From assembly GCA_002733915.1 (NCBI GenBank), contig NVXN01000013.1, positions 37,368 through 49,945 on the forward strand: a stretch of DNA of 12,578 nt. The letters run 5' to 3'. Positions 719 through 5,457 of the stretch are shown one piece after another (the stretch's first letter is position 1; every line of letters begins with the position of its first letter). The notes under the pieces were generated by a model. It was not told where the DNA came from. It saw nothing but the letters and a program-made list of their open reading frames with translations, and ran no database searches. This DNA comes from Aequorivita sp. (GTDB taxonomy: Bacteria > Bacteroidota > Bacteroidia > Flavobacteriales > Flavobacteriaceae). A program made the translations under genes and the position numbers.

Positions 719-801
719 ACCCGGGTGCTGGAATTGGTAGACAGGCATGGTTGAGGGCCATGTGTCCTTTGGGCGTGTGGGTTCAAGTCCCATCCCGGGT
801 A
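719..801 (+). tRNA. tRNA-Leu(GAG)
   Basis: A complete class II tRNA. The acceptor stem ACCCGGG (719-725) pairs with CCCGGGT (794-800), with discriminator A801. The D arm has a 3-bp CTG/CAG stem with GGTAGAC. The anticodon arm CATGG-TTGAGGG-CCATG gives anticodon GAG, which reads CTC and CTT leucine codons. The long variable arm closes as GTCC/GGGC, and the T arm is GTGGG-TTCAAGT-CCCAT. CCA is not encoded and must be added enzymatically. A T run follows directly. Confidence 0.97.
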
Positions 802-817
802 CATTTTTTTTCCATTA

Positions 818-847
818 TGTTTAGAGAATTTTAAATTTATCTAAACA
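818..847. promoter_or_regulatory. Inverted repeat upstream of the MerR/B12 regulator, candidate operator
   Basis: TGTTTAGA (818-825) and TCTAAACA (840-847) are perfect 8-bp inverted arms separated by 14 bases. The outer six bases give TGTTTA-N18-TAAACA, the same pattern and spacing as upstream of crtI. It lies about 50 bases before the regulator's start, where autoregulation would act. The intervening AATTTTAAATT is also self-complementary, so the element could alternatively fold as an RNA hairpin after tRNA-Leu. Confidence 0.5.
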
Positions 848-897
848 AGTTCACTTCTTTTTAGTACTTTCACACAGTAATTTTAATTTTTTCTTCA

Positions 898-1797
898 GTG
901 GTCAAAACACAATTTGGCATAAAGGATCTTGAAAACCTTTCAAATGTAAAAGCCCATACCATCCGTATATGGGAAAAACGCTATAATCTTCTTGAACCGG
1001 ATCGTACTGACACTAACATTAGAAAATACGATCTCGACAACCTTAAAAAATTATTGAATGTTGCCTATTTATACAATGCTGGGCATAAAATATCAAAAAT
1101 TGCAAGTTTAAATAATGTACAGATCCAGGAATTGATCAAAAAAAACATCAATGGTCTTGATTCTGAATATATGCTAAATGTTTTTAAATCGGCAATGTTT
1201 GAGTTTGATGGCGAACTTTTTGATGCCACCTTGGAAAAACTTTTGGAAAAAAAATCGTTTAGGGAGGTCTTTGCCGAAATATTTATTCCGCTACTTACAG
1301 AGATGGGCATTCTTTGGCATTCCGGAACTATTGATCCATCCCATGAGCATTTTATTTCCGAAAAGATAAAACACACCATTATTTGGCATACTGCTAGAAA
1401 GAAAAAAAGCAATTCTCAAAACGGGCAATTATTTACCCTTTACCTTCCTTATCACGAAATCCATGAAATTAGCTTACTATATGCCAACTATGAGTTAATC
1501 TCAGCGGGTTTCAATACAATTTTTTTAGGTCCAAATATTCCTCTGGAAAGCTTAACACATGTTTTAAAAACAAAAAAGAAGGTCGTATTTGTTACCTACT
1601 TTACAGTACGTCCAGAAAACAACAATCTCAAAAAATATCTCACAGATTTTCAAAAGGAAGTCAGTGCTAAAGATACGTGCGAGCTCTGGATATTGGGCAA
1701 CAAAGCCGAAAAGAGCTTTAAAAACACAAAAAGCCTAAAGTTTTTTAGGGATATTAAACAATTTACATACCATATTGAAACATTGCCTACATCCTAA
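898..1797 (+). CDS. MerR-family regulator with cobalamin-binding domain (CarH/LitR-like)
   Basis: A 299-residue transcription factor that probably controls the adjacent carotenoid genes. Residues 5-75 form a MerR-type winged helix (FGIKDLENLS, then HTIRIWEKRYNLLEP). Residues about 85-165 match the four-helix cap and about 175-295 the Rossmann-like B12 domain of CarH. The W-x9-EH motif that contacts the upper face of adenosylcobalamin is intact (W140, E150-H151). The ExH lower-ligand motif is kept as E187-x-H189, though the usual following Gly is Ser192. GPNIPLESL (211-219) matches the conserved loop after beta-2. Start: GTG at 898 places the helix-turn-helix at the normal distance from the N-terminus; no upstream ATG in this frame is better. 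In characterised CarH proteins the dark B12-bound tetramer represses and light releases it. Cofactor use here is inferred from the motifs. The MerR fold is near certain. Confidence 0.9.
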   Translation: MVKTQFGIKDLENLSNVKAHTIRIWEKRYNLLEPDRTDTNIRKYDLDNLKKLLNVAYLYNAGHKISKIASLNNVQIQELIKKNINGLDSEYMLNVFKSAMFEFDGELFDATLEKLLEKKSFREVFAEIFIPLLTEMGILWHSGTIDPSHEHFISEKIKHTIIWHTARKKKSNSQNGQLFTLYLPYHEIHEISLLYANYELISAGFNTIFLGPNIPLESLTHVLKTKKKVVFVTYFTVRPENNNLKKYLTDFQKEVSAKDTCELWILGNKAEKSFKNTKSLKFFRDIKQFTYHIETLPTS

Positions 1798-1824
1798 AGA
1801 TTAGCATTTTCAAAAAAAATCAAG

Positions 1825-1841
1825 CCCGAAAACATTTCGGG
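1825..1841. other. Small perfect hairpin between regulator and crtI
   Basis: CCCGAAA (1825-1831) and TTTCGGG (1835-1841) form a perfect 7-bp stem with loop ACA. Read on + it has an A run before it and no T run after, so it is a poor + strand terminator. On - it would be followed by a T run. It may weakly end regulator transcription or be an RNA-stabilising stem. Confidence 0.45.
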
Positions 1842-1905
1842 AAAATCGCTTATTTAAAATAAAATTAAATCTTAACACAAAATTAATTTTTGCAAATTTC
1901 TTTTT

Positions 1906-1935
1906 TGTTTAAATAAAATGTAGATTTGTTAAACA
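1906..1935. promoter_or_regulatory. Inverted repeat across the crtI promoter, candidate operator
   Basis: TTGTTTAA (1905-1912) and TTAAACAA (1929-1936) are perfect 8-bp inverted arms. Within them TGTTTA (1906-1911) and TAAACA (1930-1935) are exactly 18 bases apart, as at 818-847. The site encloses the -7 box TAGATTTG, so a bound protein would block RNA polymerase. From memory, CarH DNA sites contain a TnnACA core, which TAAACA fits. The assignment to the neighbouring regulator is inference. Confidence 0.55.
1921..1928 (+). promoter_or_regulatory. -7 box of the crtI promoter
   Basis: TAGATTTG is a perfect TAnnTTTG match. The nearest upstream TTG motifs are 13 bases (1905-1907) and 28 bases (1890-1892) away instead of the usual roughly 19-21, so the -33 contact looks suboptimal. 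Transcription would begin only a few bases downstream, at or just before the crtI ATG. Confidence 0.55.
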
Positions 1936-1937
1936 AT

Positions 1938-3404
1938 ATGAAAAAAAACATTGCGGTTATTGGTTCTGGGTTTTCATCGCTTGCCGCTTCCTGCTACTTG
2001 GCAGAAGCAGGAAATAATGTAACAATCTATGAAAAAAATGAGACCATAGGCGGGCGTGCTCGCCAATTCAAAAAAGATGGTTTTACGTTTGACATGGGTC
2101 CCACTTGGTACTGGATGCCCGATGTGTTTGAACGCTTTTTTAAAGACTTTGGAAAAACTCCCTCAAATTTCTATGAACTTGAAAAGCTAAACCCTGCCTA
2201 TCGGGTTTATTTTGGGGTTAATGATTTTATAACCATTGAAGATACCCTTGAAAAAATATGTACCGCTTTTGAAAATGAAGAACCTGGAAGCTCAATTAAG
2301 TTAAGAAAATTTATGGCCCAAGCCATGGACAATTACAATATAGCCATTAAAGATTTGGTTTATCGGCCAGGTGTTTCACCGGTAGAACTGGTCACTATTG
2401 CTACTATGAAAAAAATTGGGCAATTCTTCAGCACCATAAGTAAAGATGTACGTCGTGAATTTACAAATCCTCGATTAATTTCAATATTAGAATTTCCTGT
2501 ATTGTTTTTAGGCGCAAAACCATCAAATACACCTTCCTTTTATAGTTTTATGAACTATGCAGATTTCGGCTTGGGCACATTTCATCCAAAAAAGGGAATG
2601 TATTCCGTCATTGAAGGAATAAAAACGCTAGCCGAAAAATTGGGCGTCACTATAAAAACCAATCAAAATGTAGAACAAATAATTGTCGCAAACGGAAAAG
2701 CCTCTGCATTGCTAATTAATGGAGAAAAAATTAAAGCCGATGTAGTTTTGAGCGGTGCCGACTATCACCACACCGAAACACTTTTGGATACAAAATTCCG
2801 ACAGTATACTGAAAACTATTGGAAGAAGAAAACCTTTGCGCCTTCTGCCCTACTTTTTTACGTAGCATTCGACAAGAAAATAAAAAATGTGGATCACCAC
2901 ACACTTTTTTTTGATGTGGATTTTGAGAAACATTCCCAACAAATATACGATGTGCCACAATGGCCCGAAGAACCATTGTTTTACGCTAGTTTTCCCTCGC
3001 AAACCGATAAAAGTGTAGCTCCCGAAGGAAAAGAAGCGGGGATATTTTTAATTCCTTTGGCTCCAGGTCTTGATGATATTCCCGAAATACGCGAGGAATA
3101 TTTCGAGAAAGTAATGGAACGATTTGAAAAAACCATCAACCAGGAGGTAAAAAAATACGTTATATTTAAAGAGTCTTTTTGCATAAATGATTTTATTTCT
3201 GACTATAACAGCTATAAGGGAAACGCTTACGGACTTGCCAATACATTAATGCAGACAGCTTTTCTAAGACCAAAACTGAAGAGTAAAAAAGTTAAAAATC
3301 TTTTTTTTACGGGGCAGCTTACCGTACCCGGGCCAGGGGTCCCTCCAGCCCTTATCTCTGGAAAATTAGTTGCAGGATTAATTGAAAAAGAAATAAAACA
3401 GTGA
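1938..3404 (+). CDS. crtI: Phytoene desaturase CrtI
   Basis: An FAD-dependent desaturase of 488 residues, the usual CrtI length. It introduces four double bonds into 15-cis-phytoene to give all-trans-lycopene. The N-terminal dinucleotide-binding motif reads AVIGSGFSSLAA (residues 6-17), with the acidic residue of the second strand at YEKNE and IGGRARQF at 37-44. DMGPTWYW (52-59) is the next conserved block. The C-terminal signature FFTGQLTVPGPGVPPALISG ends about 13 residues before the stop, and its Gly-Pro-Gly-Val-Pro core is typical of CrtI. An in-frame TTG at 1926 would add MLNN but overlaps the -7 box, so ATG 1938 is preferred. First gene of the crt operon; its end overlaps crtB by four bases. 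CrtN- or CrtD-type desaturation is less likely given crtB, crtZ and crtY beside it. Confidence 0.95.
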   Translation: MKKNIAVIGSGFSSLAASCYLAEAGNNVTIYEKNETIGGRARQFKKDGFTFDMGPTWYWMPDVFERFFKDFGKTPSNFYELEKLNPAYRVYFGVNDFITIEDTLEKICTAFENEEPGSSIKLRKFMAQAMDNYNIAIKDLVYRPGVSPVELVTIATMKKIGQFFSTISKDVRREFTNPRLISILEFPVLFLGAKPSNTPSFYSFMNYADFGLGTFHPKKGMYSVIEGIKTLAEKLGVTIKTNQNVEQIIVANGKASALLINGEKIKADVVLSGADYHHTETLLDTKFRQYTENYWKKKTFAPSALLFYVAFDKKIKNVDHHTLFFDVDFEKHSQQIYDVPQWPEEPLFYASFPSQTDKSVAPEGKEAGIFLIPLAPGLDDIPEIREEYFEKVMERFEKTINQEVKKYVIFKESFCINDFISDYNSYKGNAYGLANTLMQTAFLRPKLKSKKVKNLFFTGQLTVPGPGVPPALISGKLVAGLIEKEIKQ

Positions 3405-4243
3405 AAAAACTTTTTGACATAGTTTCCAAAAAATGCAGCAAACAGGTAACTGAAACCTACAGCACATCCTTTTCGTTGGCAACCCGACTGCTTGGGCCTT
3501 CCATACGGCAGGACATTTATAATATTTATGGTTTTGTACGTTTTGCTGATGAAATTGTAGATTCCTTTCACGATTACAACAAAGAGGTGCTTTTTAGTCG
3601 TTTTGAAAATGCTTTGGAAGAAGCTCTTTTAGATAAAATAAGTCTAAACCCAATTTTAAATTCATTTCAGGAAACAGTCTATAAATACAATATTCAAAAA
3701 GATTTAATTGATACGTTTATGGACAGTATGCGTTTGGACCTTACCAAAAGTGTTTACACAACTACAGAAGAATTTAATGAATATATTTATGGCTCTGCAG
3801 ATGTTGTGGGCTTGATGTGCTTAAAAGTTTTTGTAAAAGGAGACTCTGAAAAGTATGAGCAACTGAAAGAATCTGCGATGAATTTGGGCTCTGCCTTTCA
3901 AAAAGTAAATTTTCTCCGCGATCTGAAAGAAGATTATGAAAACTTAAGCCGAACGTATTTTCCAAACACAAATCTAGATTCTTTGGACGAAGATTCAAAA
4001 AGTAAAATAATTGAAGAAATTGAAGAAAATTTCACTCAAGGTTACCAAGGCATTCTTCAGTTGCCACATGATTCAAAACTTGGCGTTTTTGTTGCTTACA
4101 GATATTATAAACGACTGTTGAAAAAACTCCAGAAAACACCTGCCACAGAAATTAAGAATTCGCGAATTCGTGTTCCAAATATTGAAAAAATTGGGCTTTT
4201 AACACGCAGCTACGTAAAATATCAATTAAATTTGGTTAAATAA
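3401..4243 (+). CDS. crtB: Phytoene synthase CrtB
   Basis: A 280-residue squalene/phytoene synthase-family enzyme that condenses two geranylgeranyl diphosphates head to head into phytoene. Both Asp-rich, Mg-diphosphate-binding motifs are present: DEIVD at 50-54 within YGFVRFADEIVDS, and DLKED at 174-178 within NFLRDLKEDYENLSRTYFP. YIYGSADVVGLMC (128-140) is the conserved segment between them. TYSTSFSLATRLL (19-31) is the N-terminal substrate-binding segment. The start is GTG at 3401, and the sequence GTGA shares four bases with the crtI stop, indicating translational coupling. The chain is slightly short at the C-terminus compared with proteobacterial CrtB, which is common in this phylum. Fifty-six bases separate it from crtZ. 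Confidence 0.95.
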   Translation: MKKLFDIVSKKCSKQVTETYSTSFSLATRLLGPSIRQDIYNIYGFVRFADEIVDSFHDYNKEVLFSRFENALEEALLDKISLNPILNSFQETVYKYNIQKDLIDTFMDSMRLDLTKSVYTTTEEFNEYIYGSADVVGLMCLKVFVKGDSEKYEQLKESAMNLGSAFQKVNFLRDLKEDYENLSRTYFPNTNLDSLDEDSKSKIIEEIEENFTQGYQGILQLPHDSKLGVFVAYRYYKRLLKKLQKTPATEIKNSRIRVPNIEKIGLLTRSYVKYQLNLVK

Positions 4244-4299: not shown

Positions 4300-4749
4300 A
4301 TGACAACCGTTCTTTGGATATTAATTTTTATTGCTACATTTTGCATTATGGAATTCATGGCGTGGTTTACCCATAAATACATTATGCATGGTTTTTTATG
4401 GAAATTACACAAAGACCACCACCATAAAGACCACGGCAGTTGGTGGGAACGTAACGATTATTTTTTTCTGTTTTATGCCTTGGTAAGCATCAGTTGTTTT
4501 GTGGGCTGGAGTTATTTTGGTTTTTGGGCAGGTTTGCCCATTGGCTTAGGGATTTTTGCATATGGACTCACCTATTTTTTTGTTCACGATATTTTCATTC
4601 ATCAACGTTTTAAAATGTTCCGAAATGCAAACAATTGGTATGCACGCGGTATCCGCAGAGCACATAAAATACATCATAAACATTTAGGCAAAGAAAAAGG
4701 AGAATGTTTCGGGATGCTGTTTCCGCCTTTGAAATATTTCAAAAAATAA
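4300..4749 (+). CDS. crtZ: Beta-carotene hydroxylase CrtZ
   Basis: A 149-residue membrane di-iron hydroxylase that adds 3- and 3'-hydroxyls to beta-carotene, giving zeaxanthin by way of beta-cryptoxanthin. All the histidine clusters of the family are visible: H25-x4-H30, H37-xx-H40-H41, H96-x4-H101 and H122-xx-H125-H126. Hydrophobic segments lie at about 3-22, 54-72 and 76-97, placing it in the inner membrane with the histidines facing the cytoplasm. The sequence and small size match CrtZ rather than the plant-type or P450 hydroxylases. ATG at 4300 is the only sensible start. The crtY ATG follows three bases after the stop, so the two are co-translated. Confidence 0.95.
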   Translation: MTTVLWILIFIATFCIMEFMAWFTHKYIMHGFLWKLHKDHHHKDHGSWWERNDYFFLFYALVSISCFVGWSYFGFWAGLPIGLGIFAYGLTYFFVHDIFIHQRFKMFRNANNWYARGIRRAHKIHHKHLGKEKGECFGMLFPPLKYFKK

Positions 4750-4752
4750 CCC

Positions 4753-5457
4753 ATGTGGCATTTTTACCTTCTGCTTGATCTAGCTTCGTTGAGTATTCCA
4801 TTTTTATTTAGTTTTCACCCAAAATTGAAGTTTTATAAACTCTGGAAATATTTTTTTCCGGCCACCTTTATTATGATGGCTTTTTTTCTTCCCTGGGACA
4901 TTATTTTTACACAACATGGAGTTTGGGGATTCAATGAAATGTACTTGTCTGGAATTAATCTTGGGAATTTGCCGTTGGAAGAATGGCTATTCTTCATTTG
5001 TATTCCGTACGCCTGTCTTTTTACAATATACGCTTTTAAAGATTTGCTTCCCAAGTTTTCAATTTCCCGGAAAACAACTGAAATAGTATATTATTTGCTA
5101 CAAACTATTTTAATCGCTACCCTGCTTTATTTTTATGATCGGTGGTACACAGCCATCAATTTTGGATACGCCATTGTTTTACTAGCTCTGGTATTTAATT
5201 ATAAACGCGAAGCTTTAACCGTTTTTTTTCCTGTTTTTACTATTCTTCTAATTCCTTTTTTTATTGTGAATGGTTTTCTTACCGGCAGCTGGATAGACGA
5301 AGAAGTGGTTTGGTACAACAACGCCGAGAATCTGGGCATACGCCTGGGAACCGTCCCTATTGAAGACAGCATTTATGCCTTGGGAATGTTACTAACAGTT
5401 TTTGTATTGATGGAAAAATTCAAAGAAAAATATTCTTCCAAACCAGGTGAAGCTTAA
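4753..5457 (+). CDS. crtY: Lycopene beta-cyclase, fused CrtYc-CrtYd type
   Basis: A 234-residue integral membrane protein that cyclises both ends of lycopene to beta-ionone rings, forming beta-carotene. It has about seven hydrophobic segments and two related halves. The first carries the PLEEW motif at 74-78 (GNLPLEEWLFF), the second PIED at 202-205 (GTVPIEDSIYAL). These are the signatures of the CrtYc and CrtYd subunits that are separate in Gram-positive bacteria and fused in Bacteroidetes, archaea and fungi. It is unrelated to the FAD-dependent CrtY of proteobacteria. The second half also keeps GSWIDEEVVWY, corresponding to FTQHGVWGF of the first. Last gene of the crt run; no strong terminator follows. 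Confidence 0.93.
   Translation: MWHFYLLLDLASLSIPFLFSFHPKLKFYKLWKYFFPATFIMMAFFLPWDIIFTQHGVWGFNEMYLSGINLGNLPLEEWLFFICIPYACLFTIYAFKDLLPKFSISRKTTEIVYYLLQTILIATLLYFYDRWYTAINFGYAIVLLALVFNYKREALTVFFPVFTILLIPFFIVNGFLTGSWIDEEVVWYNNAENLGIRLGTVPIEDSIYALGMLLTVFVLMEKFKEKYSSKPGEA

Follow-up and report, generated by a model that had tools for sequence, protein, structure and literature searches.

The stretch of DNA analyzed here (the window, 12,578 nucleotides of an Aequorivita sp. contig, family Flavobacteriaceae) contains a gene for a CarH-like regulator and, behind it on the same strand, a series of carotenoid genes headed by crtI (Table 1). A pattern scan of the window recovered TGTTTA-N18-TAAACA exactly, i.e., with 0 mismatches, at two places, ahead of the regulator gene (element 1) and immediately ahead of crtI (element 2), which presumably heads the regulator's target operon. 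Both positions and the 18-base spacing are those given in a sequence-only reading of the window. The 8-bp inverted arms were likewise as described there, perfect in each copy (TGTTTAGA/TCTAAACA in element 1 and TTGTTTAA/TTAAACAA in element 2), and element 2 does enclose the -7 box assigned to it, namely TAGATTTG, which matches the flavobacterial consensus TAnnTTTG and would form part of a predicted promoter. In element 1, TAAATTTA at 832-839 is an approximate -7 box at best, and a -7 box within the regulator-side element was rejected as a candidate feature, TAnnTTTG lying inside 0 of 39 such sites. Just 3' of element 1, a TTCACTTCTTTTTAGTACTTTCAC-like block (window positions 850-873) is strikingly conserved in Aequorivita; it may hold the regulator promoter, though it does not fit TAnnTTTG.

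Table 1 Features of the window (positions) and genes next to the element at other loci (locus handles); distances run from the element to the first possible start codon
Feature	Position or locus	Strand	Remarks
tRNA-Leu	719-802		upstream of element 1
Element 1, TGTTTA-N18-TAAACA	818..847	+	right end 50 nt from regulator GTG start (898)
CarH-like regulator	898..1797	+	GTG start; Pfam MerR_1, B12-binding_2
Element 2, TGTTTA-N18-TAAACA	1906..1935	+	right end 2 nt from crtI ATG (1938)
TAGATTTG, match to -7 box TAnnTTTG	1921..1928	+	inside element 2; predicted promoter
crtI, phytoene desaturase	1938..3404	+	NCBIfam NF058655 CrtID, 727.6 bits, cut-off 640
Phytoene-synthase-type protein, probably crtB (name inferred)	3401..4243	+	Pfam SQS_PSY, E 2.5e-46
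Fatty-acid-hydroxylase-type protein, probably crtZ (name inferred)	4300..4749	+	Pfam FA_hydroxylase, E 1.7e-12
Lycopene cyclase	4753..5457	+	Pfam Lycopene_cyc, E 2.8e-40
SDR/DUF2867 gene	L111		12 nt
folE	L114		7 nt
CrtISO-like FAD oxidase	L125		11 nt
TetR-ABC1K	L117		57 nt
egtB-egtD, ergothioneine synthesis (read from Pfam domains)	L116, L123		52 nt
Fasciclin genes	L121, L129		48 nt (L121); 16 nt (L129)
CIA30	L119		14 nt
HbpS-like gene	L128		0 nt
Short gene, no Pfam match	L130		0 nt
Proteorhodopsin / beta-carotene dioxygenase gene	L124		A. lipolytica; element between, 16 nt and 59 nt, respectively
ECF-sigma-like gene behind element	L264, L267, L269, L270, L272, L274-L277, L279, L280		Pfam on L269, L275

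The regulator contains a MerR winged-helix DNA-binding domain (Pfam MerR_1, 46 bits, cut-off 21.6) and a helical plus a Rossmann cobalamin domain, and matches CarH of Thermus (5c8d) with an E value of 2.5e-10. Its 11 named relatives all come from Aequorivita, and three of the congeneric loci lie within Aequorivita records. Its predicted model (pLDDT 85.5) retrieved CarH (5c8f) as the top Foldseek match (E 1.3e-13), and the protein is accordingly modeled, i.e., predicted, to adopt the CarH fold. Because it misses the cut-off of the NCBIfam CarH equivalog NF052513 (66.5 of 400 bits), we refer to it as CarH-like, outside that equivalog. The window protein carries the Wx9EH motif (W140, E150, H151) and the axial cobalamin-ligand histidine, H189; by domains and ligand residues it appears to belong with the CarH/LitR superfamily of B12 photoreceptors, with adenosylcobalamin (AdoCbl) binding and light-driven disassembly as putative properties. 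Among 55 regulator relatives, W140, E150, E187, and H189 are kept in all 55, while variation is seen at two positions close to the cobalamin site: position 141 is a histidine in 29 and position 151 in 33, with 28 regulators of the H141/H151 type and 16 of the Q141/R151 type, which may differ in photochemistry. A CarH-like protein might also read DNA without cobalamin, like CarA of Myxococcus, or answer another signal, in which case there would be no direct B12 light switch. This we consider unlikely: CarA is able to bind B12 although its operator binding does not require it (PMC8156234, available portion), and the two variable positions would suit such a protein, but the four invariant residues, the retention of both histidines in 26 of 27 Aequorivita regulators examined, and neighboring genes that fit a light response (see below) argue against it.

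Abundance, spacing and conservation of the element

The sequence-only reading had asked for a test of chance, the pattern having been found in AT-rich DNA. The window has 2 exact matches, whereas 200 dinucleotide shuffles averaged 0.00; exact matches numbered 8 in the window's own genome against 1 for a reversed control pattern, and 182 against 16 across 28 Aequorivita genomes. Rather than being equally frequent elsewhere, the element thus exceeds both chance and the reversed control. In the three genomes with complete site lists (G015, G016, and G020), to which the spacing count was limited, N18 accounted for 24 sites compared to 41 summed over the other 20 spacings between N8 and N28, and in the window's own genome for 8 of 16 spacing-series sites. 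With 2 mismatches allowed, the pattern was not enriched in the window (4 found, 2.48 expected), and with ≤1 mismatch the own-genome count was 41 versus 29 for the control; since the enrichment fades once mismatches are allowed, the signal resides in the exact arms. These totals include three sites inside reading frames: C5:13711 (L032) in the own genome, within a frame of 556 aa, looks like chance, and two others (L112 and L118) are taken as chance. Could both window copies nonetheless have arisen by chance, or from the composition of promoters in AT-rich flavobacterial DNA? The near-absence of enrichment with mismatches would be expected from such an origin, while the excess of exact arms, the specificity for N18, and the failure of related genomes lacking the regulator to show a clear excess run against it, and we regard its probability as negligible. 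The element is not a chance pattern, and a spacing of 18 is strongly preferred.

Two variants with other spacings were seen alongside. An N20 relative with a nearly identical spacer recurs in the three genomes (G015:C1:590596, G016:C1:599884, and G020:C27:315968), and an N24 version occurs as four identical copies in G016 (C1:1663350, 2542470, 2726686, and 3017022), probably inside a repeated element.

A scan of orthologous merR-crtI loci, also proposed in the sequence-only reading, showed that the element is widely present there. Upstream of the regulator, the exact element was found at 25 of 28 Aequorivita loci and at 14 of 29 further family loci, which are mostly best matches; downstream, the corresponding counts were 27 of 28 and 20 of 29. 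Each of these 27 and 20 downstream sites immediately precedes a crtI-type FAD motif, the identity of crtI being taken from this motif in 26 and 19 cases and from the printed protein start at L015 and L090. Spacer sequence on the regulator side varies among loci. On the crtI side, TAnnTTTG, the flavobacterial -7 consensus (PMC9723704, available portion), lies inside the element at one register (+15) in 39 of 47 sites, so that, like CarH operators, the element overlaps a predicted carotenoid promoter, and an ATG follows 2 nt past the right arm in 35 of 47. The crtI-side element would therefore cover the predicted -7 box and the probable start site, a placement that suits repression by occlusion.

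Genes associated with the element

Further genes carrying the element were surveyed at loci from six Aequorivita genomes, with neighbors identified through Pfam (Table 1); the element stands right before the first possible start codon, at distances of 0 to 59 nt overall. One additional site lies ~220 nt ahead of a DUF2452 gene. Three of the 28 Aequorivita genomes were checked for sites at photolyase operons: the operon of G010 has an exact site ~150 nt ahead of its first gene, that of the window genome has a one-mismatch site at the same place, and in G002 an exact site lies ~600 nt ahead of the photolyase. An "SRPBCC" label for the gene that opens the photolyase operon was discarded, as that gene has no Pfam match. 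Overall, the element-bearing genes fit a light/antioxidant regulon. For folE, a search of 80 genomes yielded 47 with a close folE, and the exact element preceded it in 1 of the 25 genomes that have the regulator and in none of the 22 others; the element at folE is a feature of Aequorivita rather than of the family. Separately, many Aequorivita genomes share an exact N18 site just past the stop codon of ABC1K (L113:2043-2072, L117:4164-4193, and L126:539-568); a pattern search for a small conserved gene behind it found none, nor is there an obvious gene start.

Proteorhodopsin genes were identified in 51 of the 249 Flavobacteriaceae genomes, and 25 of 50 proteorhodopsin promoters examined carry the exact element, the remaining 25 being without an exact copy. 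The distance from the start of the element to the matched protein segment is 41 to 132 nt. All other spacings from N6 to N30 gave a single hit at these promoters (N8), the shuffle mean was 0.007 loci, and several near-misses keep N18 with one arm base changed. TAnnTTTG occupies the expected place (offset 14 or 15) in just 11 of 31 proteorhodopsin sites. In A. lipolytica Y10-2 (G020, L124), the proteorhodopsin gene (1260-1994) and a beta-carotene dioxygenase gene (2100-2981) are divergent. Three Aequorivita genomes sampled in the family survey gave no proteorhodopsin match, and proteorhodopsin-side elements considered for Aequorivita G004 and G002 were dropped, with no proteorhodopsin motif at L046 and L050. 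In the available portion of a Dokdonia genome paper, proteorhodopsin regulation is said to need further work (PMC3587595), and a literature search that covered few subscription journals, partly through excerpts, returned no report of CarH control of proteorhodopsin.

Co-occurrence of element and regulator

Across 249 Flavobacteriaceae genomes, excess sites appear only alongside a regulator orthologue. The 196 genomes with an orthologue (match better than 1e-60) contained 1126 sites compared to 236 for the control, whereas 27 genomes with only a remote regulator relative contained 57 versus 39, and 26 genomes with no regulator contained 34 versus 29. A rank test gave P 8e-13 for genomes with versus without the regulator and P 0.55 for remote relative versus none, values that overstate independence because the genomes are related; the E-value threshold was picked post hoc, and a cut at 1e-45 leaves the remote group with 35 versus 30 sites (23 genomes). 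In six genera, one sampled genome had an orthologue and one had none; the site counts with/without orthologue were 6/2, 3/0, 11/1, 8/0, and 8/0, with a contrary sixth of 1/3 (G069, with the orthologue, 1 site; G264, with none, 3 sites). Within genus g131, G385 lacks the regulator and has 0 sites (2 control), and its 20 congeners with the regulator have 123 (54 control). Beyond the family, family f7 of the same order, with the regulator in 35 of 36 genomes, contained 54 sites versus 9 for the control; family f5 (35 genomes, no full-length regulator found) contained 14 versus 31, and family f11, with a remote regulator relative in 14 of 26 genomes, showed no excess (7 versus 21). Of 20 f7/f14 loci, all from genomes with at least 2 sites, 2 have the exact element upstream of the regulator and 15 have it downstream, at nearly 700 nt in two cases; it stands before crtI in one locus and before an ECF-sigma-like gene in eleven (Table 1). 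In the LitR-LitS system of Streptomyces, a B12 MerR regulator adjoins an ECF sigma gene. The order-level relatives resemble this system in placing an ECF-sigma-like gene near the regulator, unlike the Flavobacteriaceae loci examined, where the element stands directly before crtI.

G031, G208, and G254 have proteorhodopsin, no regulator orthologue, and no element; G264 (no regulator found, 91% complete) has a one-mismatch copy at proteorhodopsin, and G141 and G209 have exact copies despite only a remote regulator relative (E 8e-49 and 2e-54). A different regulator might read the element, the co-occurrence arising since genomes that shed light-protection genes lose both. Genomes without the regulator may indeed lack the targets too, the folE counts above are neutral here, and a TetR-type gene is among the element-bearing genes. 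We nevertheless judge this explanation very improbable, because the element lies beside the regulator gene both in Flavobacteriaceae and in order-level relatives, is absent from the proteorhodopsin genes of the three orthologue-free genomes, has a half-site equal to the CarH TnnACA core, and favors orthologue carriers in five of six same-genus contrasts.

A candidate operator of the CarH-like regulator

The operators bound by CarH in Thermus thermophilus and Bacillus megaterium consist of 11-bp repeats in tandem, three or four in number, of the form nnnnTnnACAn (PMC9304148; this and the papers below are cited from their available portions). The flavobacterial element shares with these operators the TnnACA half-site, the overlap with a promoter (here a predicted one), a regulator with MerR DNA-binding and B12 domains, and carotenoid genes as neighbors (PMC9304148, PMC8156234): its right arm, TAAACA, is a TnnACA core and its left arm the reverse complement. 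It differs in consisting of two inverted half-sites 24 bp apart instead of tandem direct repeats. TnnACA steps at 11-bp intervals were found next to the right arm in 3, 0, and 0 of 117 sites at -11, +11, and -22, and next to the left arm in 0 of 117 at each offset. As TAAACA fits the core and the 11-bp repeats are missing, the element resembles CarH operators in its half-site but not in its architecture, which bears out the view of the sequence-only reading that the arrangement is unlike that of known CarH operators.

Other systems show partial likeness. Myxobacterial CarH operators have been called remarkably plastic (PMC9304148), and at Pcrt of Myxococcus xanthus, where CarA and CarH of the same regulator superfamily act, inverted repeats were proposed for CarA; that operator, ~55 bp long, comprises five repeats or pseudorepeats of 11 bp, and its inverted repeats are degenerate in relatives (PMC9304148), unlike the one strict N18 pair kept here over many genera. 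The class II LitR proteins of Pseudomonas (PplR/PmlR) govern a light regulon with phrB, folE, SDR, and FAD oxidoreductase genes (PMC9758184), and this similarity in genes supports a light reading of the targets listed above. There, a separate LOV protein senses light in P. mendocina, the half-site is T(G/A)TACA, and the available portion of the paper names no carotenoid or proteorhodopsin genes (PMC9758184). Classical MerR operators also have a (pseudo)palindromic site in or over the promoter that is read by a dimer (PMC8156234); MerR metal-regulator sites measure 21-22 bp with promoter spacers of 19-20 bp (PMC5045206), compared to 30 bp over a -7 box here. No report of the present operator was found in the literature searched, including papers on MliR, Chryseobacterium, and MerR correlations, with most subscription journals outside the search and several sources available in part.

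The element, its fixed spacing and conservation, its neighboring genes, the position of the -7 consensus at crtI, and the ligand residue of the regulator are observed features of these genomes, as is the co-occurrence with the regulator. From the conserved loci, the genome-wide excess that tracks the regulator, and the TnnACA half-site, we consider it likely that the element is the operator of the adjacent CarH-like MerR/B12 regulator and marks a light/photo-oxidation regulon in Flavobacteriaceae, with AdoCbl-dependent repression in the dark and release in the light. This is in line with the proposal of the sequence-only reading that the two copies are operators of a CarH-type regulator; binding by the regulator, the sign of control, and the dependence on cobalamin and light are what we infer from these features.

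Under such a scheme, a CarH oligomer carrying AdoCbl would, in the dark, place two of its DNA-binding domains on the inverted TGTnnA/TnnACA half-sites, 24 bp apart, and the two-fold axis between CarH protomers would match the dyad of the 30-bp site. The oligomer would thereby cover the crtI -7 box and probable start site as well as the upstream region of the regulator's own gene and, in many relatives, that of proteorhodopsin. Light would then break the Co-C bond, the oligomer would disassemble, and the genes would be turned on.

Regulators of this type, with carotenoid genes as targets, are known from other bacteria; new, as far as the covered portions of the literature go, are an inverted operator with strict N18 spacing and the fact that half of the proteorhodopsin genes examined have it. 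The two sites of the sequence-only reading become a multi-gene signal that reaches proteorhodopsin, and with a regulator named, an operator defined exactly, and targets listed, the regulation of flavobacterial proteorhodopsin becomes directly testable. A broader proposal, which we hold to be evenly balanced between true and false, is that Flavobacteriaceae have a CarH operator made of inverted half-sites at 24-bp spacing, which a two-fold symmetric face of the oligomer reads, and with it place proteorhodopsin phototrophy and the synthesis of carotenoids, pterin, and ergothioneine under one cobalamin-dependent light switch. If so, the known designs of CarH operators would come to include an inverted pair with wide spacing in addition to tandem direct repeats, and proteorhodopsin levels in these bacteria would depend on both light and the supply of B12, connecting the vitamin with light-driven energy in a group that is widespread.
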